The notes under the pieces were generated by a model, which did no database searches, was not told the DNA's origin, and saw nothing but the letters and a program-made list of their open reading frames with translations. Shown in pieces: positions 41,317 to 63,989 of a stretch of 64,000 nt of DNA. The DNA comes from Pseudomonadales bacterium (lineage in GTDB: Bacteria; Pseudomonadota; Gammaproteobacteria; Pseudomonadales; Azotimanducaceae), in NCBI GenBank assembly GCA_011525295.1, contig WTGV01000019.1:62001-126000 (forward strand). Direction: 5' to 3'. How positions within the stretch are numbered: position 1 is the first letter of the stretch; each line of letters opens with the position of its first letter. The position numbers and the translations under genes were made by a program.

Positions 41317-44300
41317 TTAATTAGACGCCGGAAGTTCAACCATCACGTCGCTTGAATAGTCTCCTGTTGTATCGTCGATCGTCATCTCAAATACCAATCG
41401 ATAGTCCCGTGCGTCGGGAGGATCGTACGGACACAACTGATTATCCGTTCTCGTCTCTCCTGCAACATCAATCCAAGCTTGACCAAGACCATTGCGGACC
41501 TGCCATTTTGAGTTATTCACTGTGTAGGAAACATCCTCAATCTGACGATTGTTGAATGATTCACACTGGGTAAAACTAAGAGTGTCCAACTTTATCGAGC
41601 TCGGTTCAACATCCATCGCAACTAAGCGCACTAAATACTGGTCGTATATAAGATCAAGATCTTCAAAGTCCGGTCGCTCAATCGGACTGCTTTCTACTGT
41701 TACTCGTTCAAAGCGATGTATGGAATCTATCCAATCATCGACGACAACGTACGAAAACTTGCCTTGCTGAGTGTATATTCCAAACAACGCATCTACCGCG
41801 TCTCTAAATAGTGGAATTTGATTTCCATATCGATCCGGTTGTTCGTCCGATGACCAGTCGGATACATAAAACGCTCCCGAGTCTTCTTCGTAGGTGACCA
41901 CATAGTTCATAGAGGGAACACGGTACAAGGCGTTCGAGCGACAGAAGACTTCGATGGAAGGATCGCGCGTATTGTGGATACTGTTGATGAGACAGTGTCC
42001 GGAGCCCCAGTCCCAACGAAAAGGACGCCGAATATGAGAGGGGAAGAACTCGAAGGGATTCGATGCGCCCTCAATGTAAAAGCTGTCGATGGCGGCGATT
42101 GGTGTGGGATTTGGGCGGTCTGTTGTAAGATCAAACAAGGCAACTGCCGGACTATTCTGTCCAACAGCGAACAAAAAGTCTCCACTAGCGTCGAGCGTTA
42201 TGCTTGCACCATCGAATCGGTTGGAATTTTCATTGAGACCGGTAATTGTTAACCAAGATGCATGTGTGATTGTGGAAACTACACTTAGCAAGCCCGTCTG
42301 GTCATCTTTACGAAACGTAAAAATTCGATCATCTGAGAGTCCATACAGCAAATTCTGGTTTGGGTCAAACGTTACAGACTGTAAACCCTCCAATTCTAAG
42401 AGCGGTCGATTATCCAGTTTTAAGTCATGGGGCCTTAAAGAGGATGTCACTACTTGTCGAAGCGTCAATTCACAAGGTCCATCGACGCGGTAGGTTGCAA
42501 TCGTTCCCTCTCCAATCTTGTAGATATAACGACCAGTGCCATCGTGCAAAATCTGGGTAGGAGTCTGCCGGAAGTCACTTACTACACTACAATTGGAAAC
42601 CTCCCGAGTATGCTGATCCAATCCCTCGAACACAACAAAGTCAGTAGCTAACGGTGCGTATATCGCCTTACGGGCTGTATTCCAACCTAGCACCGAGAAG
42701 GTGGGGACGTCAACAGCTTCTCCCTCGGCGTCTTCGTAAGGAATCGTTTCAAGTACAACGAGGTCGTCATTGTCATCCTCATCCTCATCTATCGAAGGGA
42801 GTCCAAGTACTAGCAATTCATCCTCGAGCGTTAAAAGTAATTTGTCGAGGTCATTACCAACGATAGTTCCCGCAGTGGGATCGATCAATTCTTCGATGTC
42901 GTGTCCCGTAGGACTGCCAATTTCGTAGTAGTCGCGGCTGCTCCTTATCCAAGAAGGAGGGCGCGCTTCATCCCAGAAAACGTCGATCTCAGTCTGACGG
43001 GTGGAAAATTCCGTCGTATTGCTACGCATTGCTACTTGCACTCTATACTCTGTCCCCGCGTCCGGCTTGAAGATCGCCTCTGGTCTACCGCTGAGGATAA
43101 ATGATCGATCAGTCGAAGTCACGAGATCCCACGCTTCATCGTCGTCGTCGCGTTTGTGAATAGCGAGAAAATACTGATCTGTAGCTTCTCGAAGATTTGC
43201 GTCCTGCCATGTTTCTGTTGAAAACTTCATCCATCCATTGAAACCGGAAACAGGAGTCCACGATCCCCAAACCGATGAATGAACACCTGCGCTCGTAATG
43301 CCGTTGGCGCGTGATTCGTCAGGTGTCGTGGTAGCATATTTCAATTCGAATGTCTCAGTTCCGGTTGTACCACTGATAGGGTGTGGGGTACCGATTTGGT
43401 CATACTCTGGAGTAGCGCCCCAAAGGAATGAATTGCTGGATCTATCTCGTAAATATTCCAAGCCACTATTTCGATGGACCACGATGTAATATGTCGTGCC
43501 ATTAGTGGCATCAAGGACAAACTCCGGGCCGGTCGCAAGGTGTGTGAGAGTACTGAGGGTGGAACCCACAAAAGCGCTCAAAGTGTCGATTTGCGCTTCC
43601 GAGATGCGAAATGTGAATTTGCCAGTGCCAGGAGCTTCCCAAGACCACCAAAGTGAGTGAGAAGTTGTTTCTGCCGGTTCGCCCACTTCGATTGTACGAT
43701 CAACACCACTGCACGGACTACACTTCGTTCTGCTCCCCTGAGCGCCAGAAATCTCAATTGCTTCGGAGAACATATCGTTACTCATCAGAACCGAACTAGA
43801 CGATTCCTCCCAAGACAATTCATAACTCCCTTGAAAATCGGTGTATTCTGAGTTGGAACTGACGCAGATCTTGTACTCTTGGTTCTCGGACACGGGTACG
43901 TCGGCATCATAGTAAGAAGGATCTGAAATTAGACGAAGATTGTCGACTGAATCACCGAGGAAGACAAGAATCTGTGGTGGGTTGTTTGAATATGGAGCGT
44001 CTGCTTCGAACGCCCAAACGCCGGACGAAGGTGCAGTCCAAGTGAACCATGTCGTACCGACGGCTACGTACCCACCAGGTTCACCTCGTTCAACTGTTGC
44101 ATATGCATTATTTCCTGTTACTTCGCCACTTTCGCCGGTGAGTGCAATGCTATCGGCAAAGTCATCGTTAACTGGTTTCGTGTCAAGTTTTTGCCACGTG
44201 AACTCTAGGTCAGGAGCTCGTAAGTTCCCGTAACTATTCACGCGTAAATAGTAGTCTTTATCGGGTTGTAGATAAATCTCATACAGATTGGTAGTCCACA

Positions 44301-47300
44301 TATTTCCGGCGGGTGGTTCAAACATGTTGTCAGTAGAGATTAGTTGGAACGACACGTTCGCGCGACTCGAATCTTGGCTGGTAACTTGAATACCGTATTT
44401 CGCGGCAGTGGTCGATGATAGTTTGTACCACGCGCTTCGAGACTGATCGTAACCCTCTGTGAAATTGAAGAAATCATCAACGTCCCAACCGCGCTGCGTG
44501 ACAAACTCAAACAGCACTTCCATATCGATATAGAGTTCGCCAGGATGGCGGGCACCGGCGGCCAGATCAACAGATACTGTACCGGAATCGCCCGACAACT
44601 CTATTGCGCTTGTGGCGTAGTTGTTCGAAAGCACCGTGGATTTGGCAGGCAAGCTTTGCTCATCCACTAATACATCGACTGAGTCTACGTCGGCATTTGC
44701 ATTCGGACTTGCTACGGACAGATAAAGTTGATGGCTACCGGTCTTCATCTCTGGTGGAAATACCAAAGTTACTTCTTGGTCTTCACCGGATACGACCTCC
44801 CCCAAAAACAGTGGATTTCCAATATAAAAACCGGTTAGATCTTGAACGGTCCCATCCTCTCGCGTGACTTGACTCCCAGGTTGCCACAACGATTCTTCAT
44901 TGTCGAACCAGTAGTCACAATCACCATTACGCTGGTTACGACAAGCAATGTACAGCGCGACTCCTCCCGCAACAAATTCATCGTTGGAAACGGTTAGTTT
45001 AAGTTGAGGTCTTCTAGTATTGGCAGTATTTAAGGTATCCGATTCGAGTTCTATATCCAGTTGCGGGGTAGACTTTCCGATGAACATCCACGACACGGCA
45101 ATGCGCGGCGCGAACTGGTACACATTGTGAGGTATCACCGTAATTCGTTTGGTCCCGGCATCAGGGTTAGCAATGATGAGATATTCCAAGTTATCGACCC
45201 GAGAGCTCGAGACAAATTCGCCACATTCGGTTACATCGCAGTCTTCGTCTGGTCCGAGATACAGATCAAGATCTGCCATCACAGCAGAACCAACGTTGTC
45301 GTTTGGAGGTTCGTCCCACGTTAAGACGATGTCGAGACGGTCTGTGTCTTCTGGCACCTCGATTTCGATGTAGGCATATTCGTCGTTTTCGATTTCACTC
45401 ACCGCGCTATGGCTTGACCAGTCGTCGTCTGGACCTTGCGTGATCGCGGTTCTTGCCGAAACCGAGCCCATCCCATATTGGTTATTGAAGTATCCGGTAC
45501 CGTGTGTGTTCGTTCTGGGGGCGAACGCTTCTAGGTCGAAATATGCGTCCGGTTTAATCGCGGTCGCCATGAGTTGTGCGCGCACTAGCGCAGGATTCGT
45601 TTTAAAACCGTCATCCGTTCCCATTAAAAGAGTTGCTATACCAGCAACTGCGGGTGATGACATACTCGTACCGTCTTTGGAGACGTAACCTGATGTCGCG
45701 CCATTACCGTCTGCGGCAAGCACTCGGTCGCCAGTCATACCCACTTTCGGAAGCATTCGTCCGTCCGACGCCGGACCTAGGCTACTACTATAGTCAGCAA
45801 ATAGTGTATCGGTCAACCATGCTACCGGGAGCGCGTTCTTCGCGGACCCGTATTCAGAGTACCCAAAAGATCGTGCATTACCCTGGGAAACAACATACAC
45901 TTGGTCGTGATTCCAGACTGCCCAATCTAACTTTTTCGCACCGAGCCAATACCCTGTGTCTCTGGTAACTGAACTTAGACTCATGTTGATCACATTGGGT
46001 TTCATTGCAGCGGACTCCGGACCGTTCCACTCGCACGAAGATTCTTTGGTAAAGTAATCCATGGCTTTGAGAATAGAAGTAGTCCGTGCCCCACGACGAA
46101 GAGGGTCCTTGATAAAAACCTTGGCAAATCGAATGTGTCTCACACCAGGTGCAACCCCGGCTCGGCTTCGGTTTTCTACTCCAGAACCGGCAAGAATGCT
46201 CGTCACGTGGGTACCGTGTCCGACGACATCAACCCAAAGATCATCTGTGTCTAGTTGTCCCGTGTCTAAAGTTTGAAAACTTTCGCCACAAATGCTACTG
46301 CCGGACACTCGTCGGGAAGCAGAAATGTCGGGGTGAGATAGATTTAAACCGGTATCCATGACCCCGATGGTGACGTTCTGCCCTGCGACCCCGGTAAACC
46401 GACCATTCACTCCTGTGTGTGTTCTAAGTCCATCTGCGCCGGAAACGGGCACTGCAGAGTCAAGGGTCAGTTCTAGAGTTCCAACAGGTTCGACGGTTTG
46501 CACAAAATCCCATTCAGCAAGTTCAATTAACTTTCCATAGGGCACTGAGGCTACTAGAACTCGAATCGTTGGGTCCCAGTGTTCGATCTCTGCGCCAAGT
46601 TTCTCAATTTCGCTTCGCCAGTGTGAGAGGTTCGAAGTGGTCATGAGCGTAATAAACACGTCTTTGTTTTCAGAGCCAACGCTGGCATGAATTTCCTCTC
46701 GGAAGTTGGGACCGATTTTTTCGCTGATCGGCTTATTTCCTAGCGCGAGGACTGCCTCATGCGCTAGCAACTTCTTCAAACTGTCAATATTTCGAGGTAG
46801 TTGAACCCGTCGATATTCATTACCGCCTTCATATATTTCGACTTTAAGCGATCTGAAGGTATCGCGTTCGACGTTGTGCAAAAGATTTGGATTGAGTTGA
46901 ACCCACGCATAGAAATAGTCCCGGTCTGAACTCTCTTCGGAGTTTGGAAACGAGATGGTAGAAGCGTCCTTGGTGAACCATGATAGGCTGGGATGAGTGT
47001 TAACGTCAACCGAAGGTGTCTTCGCGAGTTTGCCTTTTTTCATTTCACCTCGAAAGTCGGTGAGTTCAAATGTCTTTAACCCGACATTGACCGATTCCGT
47101 ACTTTCGTTGGACGAACGATTTGTGCTCTCAACTGAAGCTAATTCGGGAGTCTCTTCCGAGAAGTGCTGAGACTTGTCTAATTGACTCTTGCTTCCGGTC
47201 TGGAGGTTTGATGTATCCGGTTTGGAAGTGTGTTCGAATTCAGTATCTGATATCTCCTGAGACTGTTCAGGCTTAAATATCACCTGATGTAAAAACACAC

Positions 47301-47358
47301 TGAGGCAAACCAAACCCACAAGGGCAAAGCAAGAAATGGCGACACGAATACGTTGCAT
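41317..47358 (-). CDS. Giant subtilisin-like (S8) serine protease with PPC-type repeats and propeller-like C-terminus
   Basis: This 2013-residue exported protein has an N-terminal hydrophobic segment (residues 8-28). A propeptide runs to about 300, then an S8 domain with catalytic Asp335 (VMDTGLNLSHPD), His381 (VGHGTHV) and Ser565 (DGTSMSSP). Beyond about 650 come repeated beta-sandwich units like prepeptidase C-terminal domains (NDDFADSIALTGESGEVTGN; NDMFSEAIEISGAQGS) with GEP and SVWGSW/FTWTAP-type strands. The last part (about 1560-1850) has repeats such as RYIYKIGEGTIATY, NLLYGLSDDRIFTF and DFLFAVGQNSPAVALF, which look like a beta-propeller. No C-terminal sorting motif (LPxTG, PEP-CTERM) is visible. 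It probably degrades or binds extracellular polymers. Confidence 0.9.
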   Translation of the reverse strand: MQRIRVAISCFALVGLVCLSVFLHQVIFKPEQSQEISDTEFEHTSKPDTSNLQTGSKSQLDKSQHFSEETPELASVESTNRSSNESTESVNVGLKTFELTDFRGEMKKGKLAKTPSVDVNTHPSLSWFTKDASTISFPNSEESSDRDYFYAWVQLNPNLLHNVERDTFRSLKVEIYEGGNEYRRVQLPRNIDSLKKLLAHEAVLALGNKPISEKIGPNFREEIHASVGSENKDVFITLMTTSNLSHWRSEIEKLGAEIEHWDPTIRVLVASVPYGKLIELAEWDFVQTVEPVGTLELTLDSAVPVSGADGLRTHTGVNGRFTGVAGQNVTIGVMDTGLNLSHPDISASRRVSGSSICGESFQTLDTGQLDTDDLWVDVVGHGTHVTSILAGSGVENRSRAGVAPGVRHIRFAKVFIKDPLRRGARTTSILKAMDYFTKESSCEWNGPESAAMKPNVINMSLSSVTRDTGYWLGAKKLDWAVWNHDQVYVVSQGNARSFGYSEYGSAKNALPVAWLTDTLFADYSSSLGPASDGRMLPKVGMTGDRVLAADGNGATSGYVSKDGTSMSSPAVAGIATLLMGTDDGFKTNPALVRAQLMATAIKPDAYFDLEAFAPRTNTHGTGYFNNQYGMGSVSARTAITQGPDDDWSSHSAVSEIENDEYAYIEIEVPEDTDRLDIVLTWDEPPNDNVGSAVMADLDLYLGPDEDCDVTECGEFVSSSRVDNLEYLIIANPDAGTKRITVIPHNVYQFAPRIAVSWMFIGKSTPQLDIELESDTLNTANTRRPQLKLTVSNDEFVAGGVALYIACRNQRNGDCDYWFDNEESLWQPGSQVTREDGTVQDLTGFYIGNPLFLGEVVSGEDQEVTLVFPPEMKTGSHQLYLSVASPNANADVDSVDVLVDEQSLPAKSTVLSNNYATSAIELSGDSGTVSVDLAAGARHPGELYIDMEVLFEFVTQRGWDVDDFFNFTEGYDQSRSAWYKLSSTTAAKYGIQVTSQDSSRANVSFQLISTDNMFEPPAGNMWTTNLYEIYLQPDKDYYLRVNSYGNLRAPDLEFTWQKLDTKPVNDDFADSIALTGESGEVTGNNAYATVERGEPGGYVAVGTTWFTWTAPSSGVWAFEADAPYSNNPPQILVFLGDSVDNLRLISDPSYYDADVPVSENQEYKICVSSNSEYTDFQGSYELSWEESSSSVLMSNDMFSEAIEISGAQGSRTKCSPCSGVDRTIEVGEPAETTSHSLWWSWEAPGTGKFTFRISEAQIDTLSAFVGSTLSTLTHLATGPEFVLDATNGTTYYIVVHRNSGLEYLRDRSSNSFLWGATPEYDQIGTPHPISGTTGTETFELKYATTTPDESRANGITSAGVHSSVWGSWTPVSGFNGWMKFSTETWQDANLREATDQYFLAIHKRDDDDEAWDLVTSTDRSFILSGRPEAIFKPDAGTEYRVQVAMRSNTTEFSTRQTEIDVFWDEARPPSWIRSSRDYYEIGSPTGHDIEELIDPTAGTIVGNDLDKLLLTLEDELLVLGLPSIDEDEDDNDDLVVLETIPYEDAEGEAVDVPTFSVLGWNTARKAIYAPLATDFVVFEGLDQHTREVSNCSVVSDFRQTPTQILHDGTGRYIYKIGEGTIATYRVDGPCELTLRQVVTSSLRPHDLKLDNRPLLELEGLQSVTFDPNQNLLYGLSDDRIFTFRKDDQTGLLSVVSTITHASWLTITGLNENSNRFDGASITLDASGDFLFAVGQNSPAVALFDLTTDRPNPTPIAAIDSFYIEGASNPFEFFPSHIRRPFRWDWGSGHCLINSIHNTRDPSIEVFCRSNALYRVPSMNYVVTYEEDSGAFYVSDWSSDEQPDRYGNQIPLFRDAVDALFGIYTQQGKFSYVVVDDWIDSIHRFERVTVESSPIERPDFEDLDLIYDQYLVRLVAMDVEPSSIKLDTLSFTQCESFNNRQIEDVSYTVNNSKWQVRNGLGQAWIDVAGETRTDNQLCPYDPPDARDYRLVFEMTIDDTTGDYSSDVMVELPASN

Positions 47359-54221: not shown

Positions 54222-54689
54222 ATGTCAAGATTGACTGACGCACAAGTTCGCGGGAAGGGTACCGCGGTCGTGGTCCAAAACGTGGAAGATCTTCTGATAT
54301 ATCATGGCAAACTCAAGCCGTTATTTTCCGAGCCGTGTGATAACTGGTTTGAAGACATCGACCCCCCGGAAAAAGTCCCAACTGGATATATCGCTATTCG
54401 CCAACTCAGCACTGGGTGTTTAGCGTTTTTACCTAAAGACAAGTTGGAAGCATGGGACTATTCGAAAGACAAGAGTGAAGCATGGGTCGATTCGAAATAC
54501 GAGAGCGAAACGTTGGACGATTCGAACAACGAGAGTGAAACGCTGGACGATTCGAACTTCGAGAGTGAAACGTTGGATCGCAAATATAACAGGCGTAAAA
54601 AGTTGGGTCGCTCAATGAATGACATTGAAGATTGGGGTCCTATTGGAATAATCGCGGCAATCCTTGCGTTCTTCTTTCCAAACTGGTGA
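54222..54689 (+). CDS. Short protein with 10-residue tandem repeats and C-terminal hydrophobic end
   Basis: This 155-residue acidic protein has a globular-looking N-terminus (residues 1-75; VVVQNVEDLLIYHGKLKPLF, YIAIRQLSTGCLAFLP). Then come 4.4 copies of a decapeptide with consensus E-(A/T)-(W/L)-x-D-S-x-x-x-S, a basic KYNRRKKLGRS segment and a terminal hydrophobic stretch (IGIIAAILAFFF). The repeats look unstructured and could vary in number. The tail may anchor it in a membrane. I recognise no family; it borders transposon debris. Confidence 0.6.
   Translation: MSRLTDAQVRGKGTAVVVQNVEDLLIYHGKLKPLFSEPCDNWFEDIDPPEKVPTGYIAIRQLSTGCLAFLPKDKLEAWDYSKDKSEAWVDSKYESETLDDSNNESETLDDSNFESETLDRKYNRRKKLGRSMNDIEDWGPIGIIAAILAFFFPNW
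54447..54578 (+). repeat. 30-bp tandem repeat (4.4 copies) within a coding frame
   Basis: Exact 30-base periods start at 54447, 54477, 54507 and 54537, with a partial copy from 54567. Copies 3 and 4 are nearly identical (GAAACG-TGGACGATTCGAAC core). Period 30 preserves the frame, so copy-number slippage would change only repeat length in the protein. Confidence 0.92.
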
Positions 54690-54726: not shown

Positions 54727-55881
54727 CTAACGTTCCTTGAAAAGCTCCACATAGCTATAAAACAAATATCTTCGATTTCGATGGCGTTGGGTGTATTCTC
54801 TCAGCAATCCACACTCAACCATGCGCACGACTAGTGCATTTGCGGAAGCAAAAGTGGTTCCCGTAAGGTCCCGAACTTCGTTCACGCTGACGAACGGGAA
54901 CTCGTACAGTCGGTCGAGTAGTCGATGTGCACTGGCTGCCAAGCGGCCGAGATTGTTGTTTATCATTTGACGGTTTTCTTCTCGAGTCTCTAAGATGCGG
55001 CGAACGGTGATAGCGGCATGTTTACCGACTTGCGTAACTGCTTTAAGAAAGAACAACAGCCAATCCTCCCAATTACCACCGTCTCGCACCGACTGCAAAC
55101 TATCGTGATATTCGCGGTTGTAGCGATTAAAGAACCAAGATAGATTGAGAACCGGTTTTTCGACTAGTTTGCTCTTGTGAAGCAGTAGCGATAGCAACAG
55201 TCTACTCACCCGACCATTGCCTTCCAGAAATGGGTGAATATTCTCAAACTGCGCATGAATCAATCCAATCTTTACCAGGGGTGGTAGTCCGATATCGGTT
55301 GCGAAGAACTGATCTAGAGCTTGCATCTGAGAATTGACTAATTCTGGTGGTGGCGGTACGAATGTAGCATCATGAACAGTACAGCCTACTGGACCAATCC
55401 AACTCTGCTTCGTTCTGAACTCGCCGAGACACAGATGCGATTCATTTTTGTGTTGAAGCATCTGTTTGTGAATCGCTCTCACGTTCGAAGTCAATGACTG
55501 AACAGCATCGACGTTGTCAGGAGCACGCTCCATAACCGCGATATAGTTCTGAATTTCCTGCATGTCATTGCTGTACTTACTGGTTGAAATATGGGCTTCC
55601 GCGGCGATCAGATCCAGCAGTCTAATGTCCGCACCGTCTATCGTGCTCGAAAGTACGGCTTCATGGCGAATGTACATAGAGACGAACTTATCGGAGTCAG
55701 TTAGAGTAAGAATTGATCCATTCAGTCGTGCTAGAGAATGTTCTGCTTGAGAAAGAGCATTTAACAGATTGCCCGTAAGTCGCATTCGTGGATTTGGCGG
55801 TAAGGGTTCTGGAATGAAAGCCCGGAATCCCTGGCTTTGTTTCTCGTAACGGCCAGCGCGGGTCGAGTCGTTGCTAGTCAA
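54727..55881 (-). CDS. Fic family protein (putative AMPylase)
   Basis: This 384-residue protein has the Fic core motif HPFLEGNGRVSR, with an acidic residue at the metal-binding position, and the helix IHAQFENIHPF before it. The N-terminus has the DUF4172-like region with an inhibitory-helix motif SSTIDG, where the usual glutamate of (S/T)xxxE(G/N) is Asp. The C-terminus has a winged-helix-like segment (FVSVNEVRDLTGTTFASANALVVRMVECGLLRE), common in class II Fic proteins. It probably transfers AMP to a protein target. No antitoxin gene adjoins it, consistent with built-in inhibition. Confidence 0.92.
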   Translation of the reverse strand: MTSNDSTRAGRYEKQSQGFRAFIPEPLPPNPRMRLTGNLLNALSQAEHSLARLNGSILTLTDSDKFVSMYIRHEAVLSSTIDGADIRLLDLIAAEAHISTSKYSNDMQEIQNYIAVMERAPDNVDAVQSLTSNVRAIHKQMLQHKNESHLCLGEFRTKQSWIGPVGCTVHDATFVPPPPELVNSQMQALDQFFATDIGLPPLVKIGLIHAQFENIHPFLEGNGRVSRLLLSLLLHKSKLVEKPVLNLSWFFNRYNREYHDSLQSVRDGGNWEDWLLFFLKAVTQVGKHAAITVRRILETREENRQMINNNLGRLAASAHRLLDRLYEFPFVSVNEVRDLTGTTFASANALVVRMVECGLLREYTQRHRNRRYLFYSYVELFKER

Positions 55882-56894: not shown

Positions 56895-57554
56895 ATGAGT
56901 CTAATGAATAAGCACATTTGGAAGCATGTGTGGAGTATCTATACCCTTTCTTCTAGGCAGGTATTTGAGCTAATTAAACCTCCTGATACGCCAATATTGG
57001 TTCCGGTACTCTTTGTCTGTATAGCTTCCACACTGATACTTTTGGTGCTAATGCCGATTCTTTATTCGTTCATCGGTGTCAATGTGATGGATGAGTCCAT
57101 CATTCCTACTGAGTTCGTTGACTTTAGTCTTACCCCTATATTGACGCTCGTAATTTGGGTTCCTGCCACAGTTGTAGCACTCTTTGTGACGTTGGTTTTG
57201 CTAGGCACATACTTCTTCATAGTCGGCCGACGCTTTCGTATTGACATACCATGGAAACATTGGCTTGGCTTCGCTGCATGGATAAACATTCCAATGGTAT
57301 TGACGCTGTTTGGGACTTCTTTGTTGAGCGTCTGGGGTCATACTCCAAATCCTTCACGCATCTACTTCGTTGCTCTTATTGTCATATTCATCGTATCGCC
57401 TCTTGTGTGGGCGGTCGTTCTTTGTGTACAGGGTTTGAGAATTTGGACTGAGAAAGGGATGTCCTTTTGTGTGATAGTCACCGTAATACCTTATTTCATT
57501 TACGCAGTATTGACGGCACTGGACATCATTTATTTGGCAGTACAAGCTTGGTAG
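56895..57554 (+). CDS. Yip1-like multi-pass membrane protein
   Basis: This 219-residue protein has five predicted helices (LVPVLFVCIASTLILLVLMP, ILTLVIWVPATVVALFVTLV, FAAWINIPMVLTLFGTSLLS, YFVALIVIFIVSPLVWAVVL, CVIVTVIPYFIYAVLTALDI). The N-terminal IYTLSSRQVFELIKPPDTP and the spacing of helices resemble bacterial YIP1-domain proteins (SRQTF...P). The match is by general pattern only. It is monocistronic and downstream of accessory DNA. Confidence 0.55.
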   Translation: MSLMNKHIWKHVWSIYTLSSRQVFELIKPPDTPILVPVLFVCIASTLILLVLMPILYSFIGVNVMDESIIPTEFVDFSLTPILTLVIWVPATVVALFVTLVLLGTYFFIVGRRFRIDIPWKHWLGFAAWINIPMVLTLFGTSLLSVWGHTPNPSRIYFVALIVIFIVSPLVWAVVLCVQGLRIWTEKGMSFCVIVTVIPYFIYAVLTALDIIYLAVQAW

Positions 57555-57757: not shown

Positions 57758-59011
57758 TCACTGCGAATAAACAGGAAATCTCTTACACAGGTTCAGTACG
57801 CTCTTCCCAATCGAAGCTATCGTATCCTCGTTGGTAACCTCATCGAGAATGTCACACATCCAATCGGCCACAGTGGAACATTCTTGGATACTAAAACCCC
57901 GACGAGTTACCGCCGCTGAACCAATACGGAGACGGTTCGGCACTCTCGGTGAGTGCGGGTTCCTGCGACCAGAGATTTTGTTCACGGATATGTGAGCGCG
58001 ACTGAGAGCTCCATAAGCAGTTTCACCAGGGACGTCGTTATCACCGAGATTTACCAAGAACATATGGATATCGGTGCCTCCTGAAATTACGGTGTAGCCA
58101 CGATCCATAAACTTTCGAGCCATGGCGCGGGCATTTTCTACCACCCCAGTTTGATAGGCACGAAACTCTGGTGTAGCGGCCTCCTTCAAACACACTGCTT
58201 TCGCCGCGATGACGTGCATTAAGGGGCCCCCCTGTGTCCCGGGAAAGAGAGCAGAATTGAGCTTCTTCTCGACTTCCGCGTTTGCGCGGGCCAAGATTAA
58301 CCCTCCTCGCGGTCCCGCGAGTGTTTTGTGAGTCGTGGTTGTAACGACATCTGCATAGGGTACTGGGTTGGGATAAACTCCGGCGGCGACTAGGCCGGCA
58401 ACATGTGCCATGTCCACCATCAGGTATGCGCCGACGGAGTCAGCAATTGCGCGAAACGTAGCCCAGTCTAACGTACGACTATACGCCGAAAACCCCGCAA
58501 CCACGATTTTCGGTTTGTGTTCTTGAGCTTTCTCAAATGCGTCATCGTAGTCGACTAATCCATCATGCTGTTTTATTCCGTAGTGAGCCGCGTTGTAGAT
58601 TTGACCTGAAAAACTATCGGGAGAGCCATGTGTTGGGTGGCCACCTTGAGTAGAACTCATACCCAGTATCAGGTCTTTGGGTTCGATTAACGCTAAGTAG
58701 ACCGACGCATTAGCTTGACTACCCGAATGAGGTTGTACGTTCGCATAGTCGGCACCAAAGAGTCGTTTTGCACGATCAATCGCTAATAGTTCTACCTGAT
58801 CGACAAAGTCACACCCCCCGTAATATCTTTTGCCTGGATAGCCTTCGGCGTATTTGTTCGTCATTCCGCATCCTTGTGCTTCGAGTACCGCGGGAGAAAC
58901 GTAGTTTTCAGAAGCGGAGAGCTCGATGTGATTTTCTTGACGACAATCTTCTGCAGTAATCGCCTCCCAAACATCGGGATCGAAATCACGCAGTTTTTTT
59001 TGACATAACAT
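57758..59011 (-). CDS. Serine hydroxymethyltransferase-family PLP enzyme with altered folate site
   Basis: At 417 residues this aligns end to end with E. coli GlyA. PLP and substrate residues are kept: K229 in [15 protein letters not shown]56, Y54, Y64, H125, the [13 protein letters not shown] motif and R362. Residues that contact tetrahydrofolate in E. coli GlyA are changed: L121 to Ser120, L127 to Pro126 and N347 to Ile346, and the nearby loop NKNSVPNDPKSPF becomes [13 protein letters not shown]. The conserved MNLAHGGHLTHG also reads [13 protein letters not shown] housekeeping role is therefore doubtful. It may be a folate-independent aldolase or a tailoring enzyme for the divergent peptide cluster. 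If another glyA exists in the genome, this is a paralogue. Confidence 0.8.
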
Positions 59012-59115
59012 GGATTGAAATTTGTTCAGCAGTTCGATAAACAGAGAAAAAAATTTTAGTACTACGAGAATTTAAGAACACTTCACTCAATGCTCTAAGT
59101 GTTGATGCGCTAGTC

Positions 59116-59142
59116 TTGAGGGTCGCGAGTGTGATATATAAT
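59116..59142 (+). promoter_or_regulatory. Probable promoter of the precursor-peptide gene
   Basis: A perfect -10 TATAAT (59137-59142) lies 35 bases before the precursor ATG, with a weak -35 TTGAGG (59116-59121) at a short 15-base spacing. It is in the 165-base divergent gap shared with the SHMT-like gene. Confidence 0.45.
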
Positions 59143-59176
59143 TGAATCGTTTAAAACTGTATCGATAAGGTGACTT

Positions 59177-59503
59177 ATGGAAGATCAAAAACTACAACGC
59201 CTCCGAGATAAATTGGGAATTTCCTCTCACGACCAGAAGGGAGCCGCAGGCAAAGAGCTCGGTCAGAATCTACAGAAGAAAGTTTCAAACTATGTCGAAG
59301 CTGGCGGAAATTTTGTCTCAGCTCCTCCCGGCACAGAGTCAGTCGCGGCCGGTGGCAATTTTGTTTCTGCTCCGCCCGGATCTGAATCAATAGCAGCTGG
59401 TGGCAATTTTGTCTCCGCTCCACCTGGAACCGAATCGATTGCTGCAGGCGGCAATTTCGTCTCAGCTCCTCCAGGTACTGAATCAATTGCAAAAAAGAGC
59501 TAG
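59177..59503 (+). CDS. Multi-core RiPP precursor peptide with four FxS-type repeats
   Basis: This 108-residue peptide has a charged leader (residues 1-40, MEDQKLQRLRDKLGI and so on) and four contiguous 16-residue repeats (41-104) of the form xAGGNFVSAPPG(T/S)ES(V/I), ending AKKS. Each repeat holds one aromatic residue (F46, F62, F78, F94) followed by Val-Ser, the three-residue aromatic-X-X pattern crosslinked in radical-SAM cyclophane (triceptide) peptides. The AAG or GG steps between units are possible cleavage sites. AAGGTG lies four bases before the ATG. A radical SAM/SPASM maturase follows. Confidence 0.85.
   Translation: MEDQKLQRLRDKLGISSHDQKGAAGKELGQNLQKKVSNYVEAGGNFVSAPPGTESVAAGGNFVSAPPGSESIAAGGNFVSAPPGTESIAAGGNFVSAPPGTESIAKKS
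59297..59488 (+). repeat. Four 48-bp repeats encoding identical core peptides
   Basis: Four consecutive 48-base units encode nearly the same 16 residues, but their codons differ at many third positions (for example NFVS as AATTTTGTCTCA, AATTTTGTTTCT, AATTTTGTCTCC and AATTTCGTCTCA). Amino-acid identity with synonymous divergence points to selection on the peptide, not recent duplication. Confidence 0.93.
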
Positions 59504-59758
59504 GAATTTCTAAGGAAGCCAGCTCCTGAATTCGAAGCTTTAGCCAGTTGGGGACGAACTACGTTTGAAGAAAACAAAGTAGTTTCGCTCGCACTACGTT
59601 GGGTCACGGTTGCTAAAGGTTGATTTTCGGCTAGAGACCCGCTTCCCTTGATGGACTTCCTGACTAGTTTCAGACTGTTTAGGAACACATCGGGATCGAT
59701 CATCGGATTCACAATCCTACCTATTTCTATCTCTTAGATTGCGTCAATTCTGAGCTTT

Positions 59759-60961
59759 ATGTACGACAACGCAAACACATCGAAGACAATCATTTCTTCT
59801 GACCGAGTCAAGGTTGATTTTCGCAACCTTCATACTCTTGCGATCACACTAAAGATTTCTGAACGTTGCAACCTCGATTGCGACTATTGCTATTTCTTCA
59901 ATGCGGGAGACGATAGCTATGAAACTCATTCAGCGCTTATTTCCCAAGACACGATCAACGTACTGGTAGGGAGACTCAAAGAATTCGCAGCAGAATACGA
60001 GCTGCGGAGAATAGTGATCCACTTACACGGTGGCGAGTCTCTGCTGATGCCGAAAGATCGCTTCAATAGTATTTGCGAAGAAATAAGATCAAATCTGGAC
60101 CCCGTCGTAGATTTAGCATTGACCGTGCAGACCAATGCCATGTTGATCGACCTCGAATGGATCGAGATATTTAGAAAGTACGGCATTCAGGTGGGTATCA
60201 GTCTTGACGGTGCGCAAAAACACAACGATGTTCACCGCCGCGATCATCAGGGCAGATCATCGTATGAAGCTACCGCGCGAGGCATAAAGTTGTGTCAGAA
60301 AAACCTCCAACAATCGCCAATGATCCTGTCTGTGGTCGACGAGAAATTTGACGCAAAAGAAATCTATACCCACTTCCGGGAAGATCTCGGCGTAGATCAT
60401 TTCGATTTTCTACTTCCGGACATGAACCACGACAACTTTGACGGTAACGCGGAAGCTTATGGTGACTTTCTGATTGATATTTTCGATCAGATGGTGAACG
60501 ATGACGACTCCGTGAACGTTCGGATCATTGATCACTTCCTAGCCCGAATTTATGGATACGGCAACTTTCTATTCAGTAGCGAGAGGTACACTCCGGAAAA
60601 TCTGCTGGTCACTGTTTCGTCCGAAGGTGGTATGGGACCTGAGGACACGATTAGATCTACGAAGTTCTGGAGCGGTTACGAATATCGAGACGTGAAAGAA
60701 ACCAGTATCGGTGAGGTTATCCAAGATCCGATTTTTCAGGATTTTGTATACGGTAAAAATACGCCTGCAACAGCGTGTACAGATTGTTGCTGGCGCGATG
60801 TCTGTGGAAGTGGCCAACCGGAACACCGATACGGAAGCGAGGGTGGTTTTGATAATCCTTCAGTTTACTGCGCAGGACTGGACAAGTTTTACACCCACGT
60901 GGTGCGATACTTAGCCCTTCAGGGGGAATCCTTGTCCACACTCAGCGCGGAGTTGGTTTAA
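59759..60961 (+). CDS. Radical SAM/SPASM peptide maturase, cyclophane-forming type
   Basis: This 400-residue enzyme has the 4Fe-4S SAM motif C37-x3-C41-x2-C44 (CNLDCDYCYFF), followed by FNAGDDSY, and the HLHGGESLL and LTVQTNAMLID strands. The C-terminal SPASM-like region has cysteines 340, 343, 344, 349 and 371 for auxiliary clusters. The N-terminal pattern (ERCNLDCDYCYFFN-GDDS) resembles the GrrM/FxsB/Xye group that joins an aromatic ring to a beta-carbon two residues on. It lies 255 bases after the repeat precursor and most likely acts on its four F-V-S units. Regiochemistry is unproven. Confidence 0.9.
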   Translation: MYDNANTSKTIISSDRVKVDFRNLHTLAITLKISERCNLDCDYCYFFNAGDDSYETHSALISQDTINVLVGRLKEFAAEYELRRIVIHLHGGESLLMPKDRFNSICEEIRSNLDPVVDLALTVQTNAMLIDLEWIEIFRKYGIQVGISLDGAQKHNDVHRRDHQGRSSYEATARGIKLCQKNLQQSPMILSVVDEKFDAKEIYTHFREDLGVDHFDFLLPDMNHDNFDGNAEAYGDFLIDIFDQMVNDDDSVNVRIIDHFLARIYGYGNFLFSSERYTPENLLVTVSSEGGMGPEDTIRSTKFWSGYEYRDVKETSIGEVIQDPIFQDFVYGKNTPATACTDCCWRDVCGSGQPEHRYGSEGGFDNPSVYCAGLDKFYTHVVRYLALQGESLSTLSAELV

Positions 60962-61059
60962 GTAGATTAGTCTAGTTCAGGCGGTTGATCACGTCGATTC
61001 GTAGGCTAAAACGATAGACGGTGAAGAAGTCACTCCCGCTCTGACACTAAACAACTTTT

Positions 61060-61770
61060 GTGAAAATCTACTATGATCCACGGTTGGGGTCAGTCTATGA
61101 CCTGATCATGTACACCGACACTCTCGTTTCCGTTCAAGAAAATTTTTCAGACACCTTCGATTATCGACCCAACGCGAAATTACCCGCAGATTTTCGAAAG
61201 TTAGAAGAAGAAGAAGTCAAGAAATACACGGGCACTCTTGACGAATTGACAATTGAGGATGAGCTCAATTTTGTTGCGGTCTTTCCATGCGAGCCTGAAT
61301 CGGATCAGACCTTGAACTTCTCGCCGTTTAATAGCTTGTCTCAGATTAGTGTGCTGAATGCTTCCGTCGATTACGCCAATAGTCCGTCAATCACCATTGA
61401 CAAAGCTTCAGGACTTAAGTTGGGACTGCACTTGGACACATGGGATGATCACGACGTCCAATCCAGATGGAAGAGCCGAAATCGTGTCGTAGTGAACCGC
61501 GGCCCCGGGGATCGATATGTCTTTCTAGTGCTAGTCCCTATAGAAGAAATGGCTGAGCTTGCGGAATCGCCGAGCAACCTTCATCCATGTGAAGTTGCCG
61601 ATAGGTATATAGAACGTGCCGGAAGCCGTATTCCGTGTCTTAGAATTTGGCAAAAACCCAACGTCGCCTATGTAGGTTGTACGGAACGTCTCGTCCACGA
61701 TGCGTGCGTTCGTCCACACCATGAAAGAGCCGAAAGCCGGCACTACCTAGGTCATTTCGTAAAGGTCTAG
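61060..61770 (+). CDS. Putative 2-oxoglutarate/Fe(II) oxygenase partner of the RiPP cluster
   Basis: This 236-residue protein starts at GTG 99 bases after the maturase. It shows a double-stranded beta-helix metal motif: H124-x-D126 in GLKLGLHLDTWDD, a following strand NRVVVNRGPGDRYVFLV, and a distal histidine in YVGCTERLVHDACV (H213), with basic residues nearby for 2-oxoglutarate. Naming from memory of a YhhA/YhhB/YhhC set includes a cyclophane-peptide 2OG oxygenase beside the maturase, which fits here but is unverified. A hydroxylation of the modified peptide is the likely job. The N-terminal 70 residues are unassigned. Confidence 0.65.
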   Translation: MKIYYDPRLGSVYDLIMYTDTLVSVQENFSDTFDYRPNAKLPADFRKLEEEEVKKYTGTLDELTIEDELNFVAVFPCEPESDQTLNFSPFNSLSQISVLNASVDYANSPSITIDKASGLKLGLHLDTWDDHDVQSRWKSRNRVVVNRGPGDRYVFLVLVPIEEMAELAESPSNLHPCEVADRYIERAGSRIPCLRIWQKPNVAYVGCTERLVHDACVRPHHERAESRHYLGHFVKV

Positions 61771-61805
61771 CGCGTGTCGCGGTTCGAGCTTAACTTGGTT
61801 ATTGA

Positions 61806-62120
61806 TCAACCGCCGGGCTTTCCGGTCCTCCAGTCCCACATCCGAATGTGAGTTTGTGCAAGGGTGCCTGCCTTACTGTAGGGACAATCTGCGACAAATG
61901 TTTGCACACTCTCTATTGAGGAAGCTTCGACTACTAACAGGAAACCATCGACTATACTGACATCGTCGTCGTGAGTGGGGCCGGCGTTGTGGACGACAAC
62001 GTCCGGATGTTCAGGATGACTATTTAGATAGTCTGCAAATGCTAACTGAACTTCACTACCTGATCGCACTCGACCGGGTTGGTGATGGGCGATAACTACA
62101 AAGTACATCGTTTGATCCAA
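61806..62120 (-). CDS. YCII-related protein
   Basis: This 104-residue ferredoxin-like alpha-beta protein has the YCII pattern: MYFVVIAHHQPG at the N-terminus, HNAGPTHDDD in the middle with conserved His and Asp, GFLLVVEASSIESVQTFVADCPYSKAGTL and the terminal WDWRTGKP. YciI-like proteins are small, often dimeric, of poorly known function. An internal Met at position 5 is an alternative start. It is convergent with the RiPP oxygenase gene and could be incidental to the cluster. Confidence 0.85.
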   Translation of the reverse strand: MDQTMYFVVIAHHQPGRVRSGSEVQLAFADYLNSHPEHPDVVVHNAGPTHDDDVSIVDGFLLVVEASSIESVQTFVADCPYSKAGTLAQTHIRMWDWRTGKPGG

Positions 62121-62225
62121 ATTTTTTTGTCTAAGAGAAGTCAGAAATTGTAAGCACGAACTGAGCTGCTTTCTTGGAAGTATTTTGTGTGAACTAGGTT
62201 GCTTTATGTAAGAGAGCGAGTGTTT

Positions 62226-63989
62226 CTACGTTGGGTCATTGATCCGATTCTGTCGATAGTCCACACGAACGGTGACGATATCCGTTTCGTAGTATTGTTG
62301 ATGGCGAACGGACGAAGCAAGATGACGCAACAAACGCAACGAGATGTCCTGTTCGACCATAGCTGCAGCATTCGCCTCGCCCAACAGTGCTATCCGATCT
62401 TGAATGTTTTCTTCACCTTTTGACGAAACGAATTCCAAGACAATCGCGCGATCTTCGCTATATATTGTTAGTAATAGACGTCTACCCACTTCAGTACTGA
62501 GTGCTTCGTTGCGGCTCAGCGTTAACCAAATCTCTTCGCAGACTGCGTTGAGTCGATTAACCAGCTGAGTGTCCCATTTTTTCCGGGATGCAAGGGTACC
62601 GATAAACACCCATATTTCCCGCAAGGCAGATTCATCAAATCCCACTTCTATACGGTGTCGACGTGATTTGGTAAGTTCAAGTAGTGCGGTCAATGCAACC
62701 GCGACGATACCACCTGCGAGCATCCCGTTTTGCAAGAGGGCACGCGCAAATTCCGGCGCGGCCTCAGGAAATATTGCTTGGATTTGAAATCCGACACCGA
62801 GCCAGAAAGATATCCCAACTATCAATCCTTTACGAAAATCAATTCCGTCCTGAATAATCACTCGCGCGCCGATAATGAAAATAGTCGCCATTGTCACTGT
62901 GATAAAAGACGCGACGACCGGACTTGGAATCGCAAGGATCACCGCGAGCGCTTTGGGAACGAACGCGAGAAAGATTAACAGGATTCCTAGCACAACGCCG
63001 ATGCGGCGAGAACTAATCCCGGTGATTTCTACCATTGCTGCGCCTGAAGGTCTGAAACCGAGAGGCATCGTGCATGCTAAGCCCGAAAGTAAGTTGCCCG
63101 CTGCGTCTCCAGCGACTGCTCCCTGTACAGCTCGAAAGTCCACCGCACGATGCTCCTCCCAAGAGACTTGCTGAATTCCAACAGCACCACTGATCGTCTG
63201 CATGGTGCAGATCAAGGCTACCAAGATGAATGCGGGAAGCAATACCCAAAACTCAGATTTGAACTGTAGGTCTAAGACGACTAATTCTGGATTCGGCATC
63301 CCGATCCAAGACGCCGCAACGACACGGTCGGTGTCGTACAAACCGAACATTGCTCCCACTATTGAGCCCAAAACGATGCCAATAACCGGTCCCCAAAATC
63401 GCATCCGGTTCTTTCCAATTAAAGTGATTCCGACGATGAGACTCATAGTCACGAGTGCGCTAAGTGCGGCACCAACTGGAGACTTGTCCCCAATCACTAC
63501 GTCAGGCTGATTGAATAGGACTGGCATGATCGTGATTGGAGTCAGCATGAGAACCGTGCCGGTCACGGTCGGCGTGAGAATGCGTCTTAGCACGGAGAGG
63601 TGTGTGGAAAACAAGACTTGAATCACAGCGAAGCAAATCACCAACGTTGCCAATAATGCTAGACCACCTGTGGCTAGAGCCGCAATGCTGACGGCGATGG
63701 CTGCGATTGACGGCCCCACTGCAAGTATGTACCCGGCACCAAACCTGCCAATCCGCTGAGCCTGAATGATCGCCGTAATGCCAGATATTGCTACGGACGC
63801 AAATACCGCCCACTGCAGGTGTGCCTCTGGTTGGCCGGGAGTTCGAAACACGACTGTAGGAATCATCACGATGCCGGGTATCACTAGGCAAGCGATCTGT
63901 ACCGCGACTCCCAAGCTCTGCAGAACTGGGGTTGCAGCGTTCGGATCTCTGCGGACCCGAGAATCTTGGTCGGATTCGTTGAGACTCAA
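62226..63989 (-). CDS. NCS2 (xanthine/uracil-type) permease with C-terminal ATPase-like domain
   Basis: The N-terminal 440 residues form a 14-segment nucleobase transporter (FAVIQVLFSTHLSVLRRILTPTVTGTVLML with the conserved TP-VTG, and ALICTMQTISGAVGIQQVS). A soluble C-terminal domain of about 140 residues follows, with the shape of an anti-sigma or GHKL HATPase: VNRLNAVCEEIWLTL (N-box-like region with Glu), a strand RAIVLEFVSSKGEE, and SLRLLRHLASSV. The fusion is unusual and could sense substrate and signal, although key ATP-lid glycines are weak. It starts at TTG 63989, close to the window edge, so upstream context is not visible. Confidence 0.8.
   Translation of the reverse strand: MSLNESDQDSRVRRDPNAATPVLQSLGVAVQIACLVIPGIVMIPTVVFRTPGQPEAHLQWAVFASVAISGITAIIQAQRIGRFGAGYILAVGPSIAAIAVSIAALATGGLALLATLVICFAVIQVLFSTHLSVLRRILTPTVTGTVLMLTPITIMPVLFNQPDVVIGDKSPVGAALSALVTMSLIVGITLIGKNRMRFWGPVIGIVLGSIVGAMFGLYDTDRVVAASWIGMPNPELVVLDLQFKSEFWVLLPAFILVALICTMQTISGAVGIQQVSWEEHRAVDFRAVQGAVAGDAAGNLLSGLACTMPLGFRPSGAAMVEITGISSRRIGVVLGILLIFLAFVPKALAVILAIPSPVVASFITVTMATIFIIGARVIIQDGIDFRKGLIVGISFWLGVGFQIQAIFPEAAPEFARALLQNGMLAGGIVAVALTALLELTKSRRHRIEVGFDESALREIWVFIGTLASRKKWDTQLVNRLNAVCEEIWLTLSRNEALSTEVGRRLLLTIYSEDRAIVLEFVSSKGEENIQDRIALLGEANAAAMVEQDISLRLLRHLASSVRHQQYYETDIVTVRVDYRQNRINDPT

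Follow-up and report, generated by a model that had tools for sequence, protein, structure and literature searches.

A probable triceptide-class gene cluster with a repeated GGNFVSA core in a Pseudomonadales bacterium

What is made of a short repeat peptide whose gene lies among those for a radical S-adenosylmethionine (SAM) enzyme, an oxygenase-like protein and an altered serine hydroxymethyltransferase (SHMT)? This question is raised by a locus of a Pseudomonadales bacterium (family Azotimanducaceae, assembly GCA_011525295.1), of which 64,000 nucleotides of contig WTGV01000019.1, here called the window, were analysed. A sequence-only reading had placed four genes in 4 kb, and each of them was found as an open reading frame: the SHMT paralogue P0004 (57758..59011, minus strand), the precursor peptide P0001 of 108 amino acids (59177..59503, plus strand), the radical SAM/SPASM peptide maturase P0002 of 400 amino acids (59759..60961, plus strand) and the 2-oxoglutarate (2OG)-Fe(II)-oxygenase-like protein P0003 of 236 amino acids, which has a GTG start (61060..61770, plus strand). 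The extent of 4 kb was too small, since genes for a YciI-like protein and an NCS2 permease, absent from that reading, are part of the conserved neighbourhood. It is well supported that this is a real cluster for a ribosomally synthesized and post-translationally modified peptide (RiPP) of the triceptide class, larger than first described, outside the named subfamilies and in unusual gene company. Its product is probably a peptide with a repeated core, in each unit of which a Phe-Ser crosslink would be followed by 2OG-dependent hydroxylation, and the neighbouring genes may be linked to it.

The precursor and its occurrence with the maturase

P0001 consists of a leader with the pattern MEDxKxxxLRxKLGIS...NLxxKxS and four units of 16 residues that read AGGNFVSAPPG(T/S)ES(V/I)A. 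Tandem Repeats Finder (TRF) detected a single 48-bp array of 4.0 copies coding for these units (59299..59491, plus strand, score 211), in agreement with the four FxS-bearing repeats originally described. For the decapeptide AGGNFVSAPP, 33 synonymous and no non-synonymous codon differences were counted in 60 comparisons (six repeat pairs); the full 16-residue unit gave 54 synonymous and 6 non-synonymous differences in 96 comparisons. Because the codon differences in the decapeptide are all synonymous, the repeats are under selective constraint. Two database matches of the precursor were rejected. The match to TIGR01701 (FdhF-like, 1.5e-5) was ascribed to chance, as the same stretch scored 0.066 in the precursor of locus L015 and the precursors of L018 and L019 match nothing, and the Thiovarsolin match (0.022) reached 15 of 35 bits.

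Orthologues of the maturase were present in 13 genomes of Gammaproteobacteria, Alphaproteobacteria and Binatota (the window genome G000, and G002, G007, G008, G010, G011, G013, G049, G195, G196, G197, G198 and G443). These were found mainly via the maturase, and the co-occurrence counts rest on that set. A search of genome contigs gave ten loci (L010-L019). Six of them, L010-L015, come from gammaproteobacterial metagenome-assembled genomes (MAGs) of the window genus (G008, G013, G007, G011, G002 and G010, respectively; one OMG group), and the others from an alphaproteobacterium (L016, G195), a member of the Rhodospirillales (L017, G196), a gammaproteobacterium (L018, G197) and a member of the Binatota (L019, G198). 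Whole-genome searches added G049, which is of the same family as the window, and G443, which is among the relatives of G196. The sponges Rhopaloeides odorabile, Coscinoderma matthewsi and Ircinia ramosa are sources of MAGs described by Robbins et al. (2021; PMC8163846). In MAG names, prefixes such as RHO and CO may refer to these hosts, and SB bins may likewise come from sponges.

The distribution of the cluster is patchy. At E <= 1e-60 the maturase was found in 8 of the 195 relatives of G000. Of the 369 genomes in a class sample four gave a match, but for three the identity was just 34-36%, which leaves G000 as the sole orthologue in that sample. At E <= 1e-40 it was present in 6 of 243 relatives of G198, where only G198 itself exceeded 33% identity, and in two of the 240 relatives of G196, each of which carries an orthologue. 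The contig of G343 that carries a distant maturase ends nearby in a short-period repeat with several open frames (L116:8036-8320), possibly another repeat precursor. With a precursor profile the same 8 of 195 relatives were found that carry maturase and oxygenase, so that none had a precursor without the maturase. Among the 13 genomes the precursor was present in all and the oxygenase in 12; it is absent from the entire genome of G198.

In 12/12 aligned precursors, that of the window included, and also in G443 the sequence of the first core unit is GGNF[V/L]SA; one later unit of G049 reads GGNFVSS. An aromatic-x-acceptor motif, F-[V/L]-S, is therefore part of the first unit in each of these precursors, which adjoin the maturase. 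Runs of N interrupt the precursor genes of G195 (L016:3659-4099) and G196 (L017:2550-2879), where the repeats perhaps defeated the assembler and no repeat count was obtained. A role of P0001 as a structural or secreted repeat protein, with the enzymes lying beside it by chance, is very improbable. Tandem repeats rich in Pro and Gly are common in structural proteins. The precursor of G197, however, is down to one unit and yet retains the leader and GGNFVSA, and precursor and maturase are paired in each of the 8 relatives with either as well as in five other genomes.

Maturase and oxygenase

The NCBIfam matches of P0002 are headed by cyclophane-forming maturases, with XyeB as the best (E 5.5e-83). 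The scores were 278.8 bits for XyeB (cut-off 450), 259.2 for YhhB (445), 251.3 for FxsB (370) and 132.6 for GrrM (310), and all 25 models shown, of 65, were matched below their cut-offs. P0002 thus falls outside these named subfamilies. Radical_SAM (PF04055) was matched with 54.6 bits and SPASM (PF13186) with 14.1 bits, under its cut-off of 21.5. The cysteines of the CxxxCxxC motif (C37/C41/C44) as well as C340, C343, C344, C349 and C371 are invariant in 12/12 aligned maturases. Residue 94 of the window maturase differs from the other 11 of these 12 (HGGESLL versus HGGEPLL), a single and unusual change in a conserved motif. Among solved structures the maturase profile matched ChlB with 1.4e-56 and an anaerobic sulfatase maturase with 4.4e-25. 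In a tree of 21 rows, with long-branch outgroups and a midpoint root, the 13 orthologues come out together (93/97), separate from XyeB, FxsB and GrrM. As far as sequence reaches, family matches, profile and tree thus agree with the earlier assignment of the enzyme to the makers of three-residue cyclophanes. Among the orthologues the Binatota locus L019 clusters with the alphaproteobacteria, G443 and G049 (95/91), a placement that fits transfer between lineages. A plasmid origin was rejected, because the 22 plasmid records that match the maturase at E <= 1e-30 are all below 60% identity, and so was a viral one, because none of the 25 viral-contig stretches that matched a pattern codes for a relative.

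The maturase would bind the conserved leader and, in each N-F-V-S unit, join the Phe ring to the C-beta of the Ser two residues further on (F46 to S48 and the equivalent positions), with a loss of 2 Da per unit. MscB is reported to crosslink F-x-S between C4 of Phe and C-beta of Ser (PMC11002830). Alternatively, the enzyme could perform other radical SAM chemistry, such as epimerization, a crosslink that starts from Asn or ends at another residue, or chemistry at C-alpha, and no Phe-Ser cyclophane would be formed. Among the aligned precursors the invariance of Phe and Ser is shared by Asn45 and both Gly residues of the core, so that the motif alone cannot name the joined atoms. The scores under the family cut-offs point the same way, as does a RiPP with TVGG repeats that is encoded by a comparable set of genes (precursor, radical SAM enzyme and alpha-ketoglutarate (aKG) enzyme) and receives cyclopropyl groups, according to the same source (PMC11002830). 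Such other chemistry is nevertheless unlikely: the best family matches of the maturase are cyclophane makers, thioether RiPPs are excluded since P0001 contains no Cys, and the single aromatic residue of each repeat lies within the aromatic-x-Ser motif reported for MscB (PMC11002830).

The preferred Phe-Ser cyclophane would place the cluster with the triceptide systems (XyeB/XncB, GrrM/OscB, FxsB/MscB and YhhB), in which a short precursor with core motifs of the form aromatic-x-(N/D/S/R) likewise adjoins a radical SAM/SPASM maturase. It differs from them by a maturase below the curated cut-offs and by its GGNFVSA core, of which no mention was found in the accessible portions of the triceptide literature.

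At E <= 1, P0003 matched no family of Pfam or NCBIfam. Its residues H124, D126, H213 and R227 are invariant in 11/11 aligned orthologues, and the HxD and H align with those of MicC (9vkm), a protein on which the literature search gave no paper. Because it resembles MicC and cupin/JmjC-type enzymes, the protein, formerly called an oxygenase for its HxD...H residues, appears to be of the 2OG-Fe(II) oxygenase type, with R227, to judge from its spacing, as the probable 2OG ligand. Its only two plasmid relatives lie directly beside GrrM/OscB maturases (Nostoc sp. TCL26-01 and Streptomyces sp. ADI95-16), with approximately 32% identity across about half of the protein. In these clusters, too, a hypothetical protein related to P0003 therefore adjoins a cyclophane maturase, although the candidate precursor sites of the Nostoc cluster are W-D-N and W-N-D instead of F-V-S.

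The oxygenase would act after the maturase and hydroxylate a residue in or beside each ring, the Val or Asn of NFVS being the likeliest. In G198, which lacks the oxygenase, both cores read GGNFLSA instead of GGNFVSA, and the Val of the core may be the target. A coupling of the core Leu with loss of the oxygenase was set aside, as it concerns one lineage only. Cyclophane formation and aKG-dependent hydroxylation of the same peptide are likewise combined in ChlB/ChlH, a cyclophane synthase fused to an aKG-HExxH beta-hydroxylase, from which the window oxygenase differs in being a separate protein of the HxD...H instead of the HExxH kind. Cluster 41 of Kostenko et al. (2022; PMC9062424) has a repeat-core precursor, a radical SAM enzyme and an aKG/Fe oxidase in one cluster as well; its repeats, however, are YNR/HNR and a putative peptidase is present.

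It is also conceivable, if rather improbable, that P0003 is a 2OG enzyme other than a hydroxylase and desaturates, crosslinks or cleaves the peptide. Halogenases of the 2OG kind lack the acid of HxD, and HxD is retained in all 11 orthologues. One paper describes Cys-Tyr crosslinking by an aKG enzyme and an aKG HEXXH enzyme that cleaves the backbone oxidatively, while the characterized aKG activities in RiPPs are there largely hydroxylation (PMC12636437). A cleaving role would fill a gap, as no protease conserved across lineages was found.

The neighbouring genes and the SHMT paralogue

Downstream of the oxygenase-like protein, whose hydroxylase function is preferred here, lie on the minus strand the YciI-like protein P0006 (PF03795; 61806..62120) and P0007, an NCS2/Xan_ur_permease-type transporter with a C-terminal extension (62226..63989). 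Both neighbours are kept across lineages, within about 10 kb of the cluster in 11/13 genomes. The two exceptions are G049, whose contig stops just past the oxygenase, and G195, where neither was found in the 20 kb examined. Rieske ring-hydroxylating alpha and beta subunits accompany the cluster in 5/13 genomes (G195, G196, G197, G198 and G443), and the SHMT paralogue does so in 7/13, all of the window genus. The best model for the alpha subunit was benzoate dioxygenase BenA (292.3 bits, cut-off 781). A Rieske protein search at E <= 1e-20 gave no match in the seven genus carriers and weak matches in G049 (best 9.2e-34).

In the window genus the SHMT gene points away from the precursor, maturase and oxygenase genes, which are followed by YciI and permease genes on the opposite strand. 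G196 shows the same layout with the Rieske beta and alpha genes in place of SHMT, and so does G443, viewed from the opposite strand. Since the layouts otherwise match, the SHMT occupies the slot of the Rieske pair. On one strand G198 carries permease, YciI, Rieske alpha, Rieske beta, precursor and maturase, and G195 Rieske alpha, beta, precursor, maturase and oxygenase; G197 has, with other genes between, precursor, maturase, oxygenase, Rieske alpha, beta, a tripartite ATP-independent periplasmic (TRAP) substrate-binding protein, permease and YciI. Rieske, YciI and TRAP genes also occur together without a RiPP in G017 (L102), and permease and YciI do so in G023 and G017; within the stretches examined, G015 and a second locus of G023 had the permease without YciI. 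Because transport-oxidation genes also occur without the RiPP in G017 and G023, they and the RiPP trio appear to be separable modules that recur near each other.

P0004 matched the NCBIfam SHMT model with 571.9 bits (cut-off 335). A second, ordinary SHMT (L020) is present in G000, to which P0004 is closely related (72%). Two SHMTs were found in 7/7 RiPP carriers of the window genus and a second SHMT in 0/11 other members, ten of which have one SHMT and one of which (77% complete) has none at E <= 1e-100. The 7/7 against 0/11 does not represent seven independent events, because the seven carriers may be one clade. Residues were compared in an alignment of 40 rows, comprising 15 for the seven paralogues (loci in duplicate), 24 other SHMTs and that of E. 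coli; it includes the ordinary SHMT of G000 and leaves out those of the other six carriers and weaker matches. Positions are in E. coli numbering, and their assignment as folate- or pyridoxal phosphate (PLP)-contacting follows the structures of E. coli SHMT. L121, N347, V349, P350, F357, T359 and G361 are replaced in 7/7 paralogues and retained in 24/24 other SHMTs and in E. coli, and L127 is altered in 6/7 paralogues. At the PLP/substrate positions 13/13 residues are unchanged in all seven paralogues and in every other aligned row. P0004 is thus, to judge from these residues, an SHMT that lost the folate pocket and kept the PLP residues, which bears out the altered folate site of the sequence-only reading. 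Fluorothreonine transaldolase and folate-free SHMT relatives presumably share the SHMT fold and a dispensable folate site; unlike them, P0004 is closely related to the second SHMT of its own genome, and its match to the transaldolase model is weak (117.3 bits, cut-off 650).

Membership of the PLP gene in the cluster, proposed from its position and folate site, gains support at the level of the genus, where the occurrence of a second SHMT follows that of the RiPP. The stretches examined around the six other clusters (G049, G195, G196, G197, G198 and G443) showed no SHMT, and P0004 is a genus-specific accessory instead of a core part. Transport or metabolism tied to the product would come from the YciI and permease genes together with an accessory enzyme that differs between lineages, in the window genus an SHMT-type PLP enzyme independent of folate and elsewhere a Rieske ring-hydroxylating oxygenase. 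That SHMT, YciI and permease are unrelated neighbours of a system limited to precursor, maturase and oxygenase is a possibility to reckon with, if a doubtful one. It agrees with the six clusters around which no SHMT was found, with permease genes that occur without the RiPP and with permease and maturase trees that are apparently discordant on the window genus and the alphaproteobacteria. The proximity of YciI and permease to 11/13 clusters in distant lineages, the single strand shared by the G198 genes and the tracking of the RiPP by the second SHMT, albeit perhaps in one clade, argue for linked neighbours.

Yip1-type membrane proteins flank the cluster on both sides in several genus members (window 56895-57554; L079:472-1958); the upstream one is an orthologue and the downstream ones are copies with 29-40% identity. 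At 54222-54689 a 155-amino-acid protein that matches no Pfam family and has internal ESETLDDSN-like repeats is encoded beside a Fic-family gene (54727-55881). A promoter scan of 58950-62250 found one site, fewer than the mean of 4.4 for shuffled sequences, and gave nothing usable.

Export, proteolysis and significance

No dedicated peptide exporter was recognized near the cluster, as judged from frames and families and not from a search aimed at exporters; the Xenorhabdus xye cluster, in contrast, contains HlyD and a peptidase-ATP-binding cassette (ABC) exporter. Two tandem HExxH proteins that match no Pfam family (L079:3689-5955) lie approximately 3.7 kb beyond the permease, just past the window. 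Relatives of them are present in the cluster stretches of G002, G011 and G013 and were not found in those examined of the other genus members, G049, G195, G196, G197, G198 and G443. About 10 kb before the SHMT gene a 2013-amino-acid protein with a long C-terminal part (41317-47358) contains a subtilase domain (PF00082, 102.9 bits), a piece of which is present at the edge of the G007 stretch; the subtilase was not found in the stretches examined of G049, G195, G196, G197, G198 and G443. The HExxH proteins and the subtilase are candidate leader proteases of the window genus only, which are not conserved with the trio across lineages.

Because the gene set recurs in unrelated bacteria near uptake and oxidation genes, the product may serve the metabolism of the cell itself rather than being an exported antibiotic. 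A more specific version, quite unlikely as it stands, would have the modified peptide as an internal cofactor, metal carrier or substrate carrier that cooperates with a locus for transport and oxidation. The trio would then be a movable module that unrelated bacteria carry at NCS2-permease/YciI/TRAP loci, where the Rieske oxygenase or folate-free PLP enzyme encoded next to it would use or finish the product.

A literature search, with subscription papers mostly outside it, gave no description of the cluster, and an earlier one may exist. The cluster adds to the cyclophane maturases a subfamily that has a core of its own, GGNFVSA, and a partner from an uncurated family of 2OG oxygenases, which elsewhere lies beside GrrM/OscB maturases. 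Both cyclophane formation and ring-dependent oxidation can therefore be tested with one small gene set. The SHMT paralogue appears to be a natural duplicate of GlyA beside a RiPP, in which PLP chemistry would be kept and the folate pocket lost. The presence of the trio near uptake and ring-oxidation genes in three lineages, with no recognized exporter, questions the view that such peptides are secreted antibiotics.

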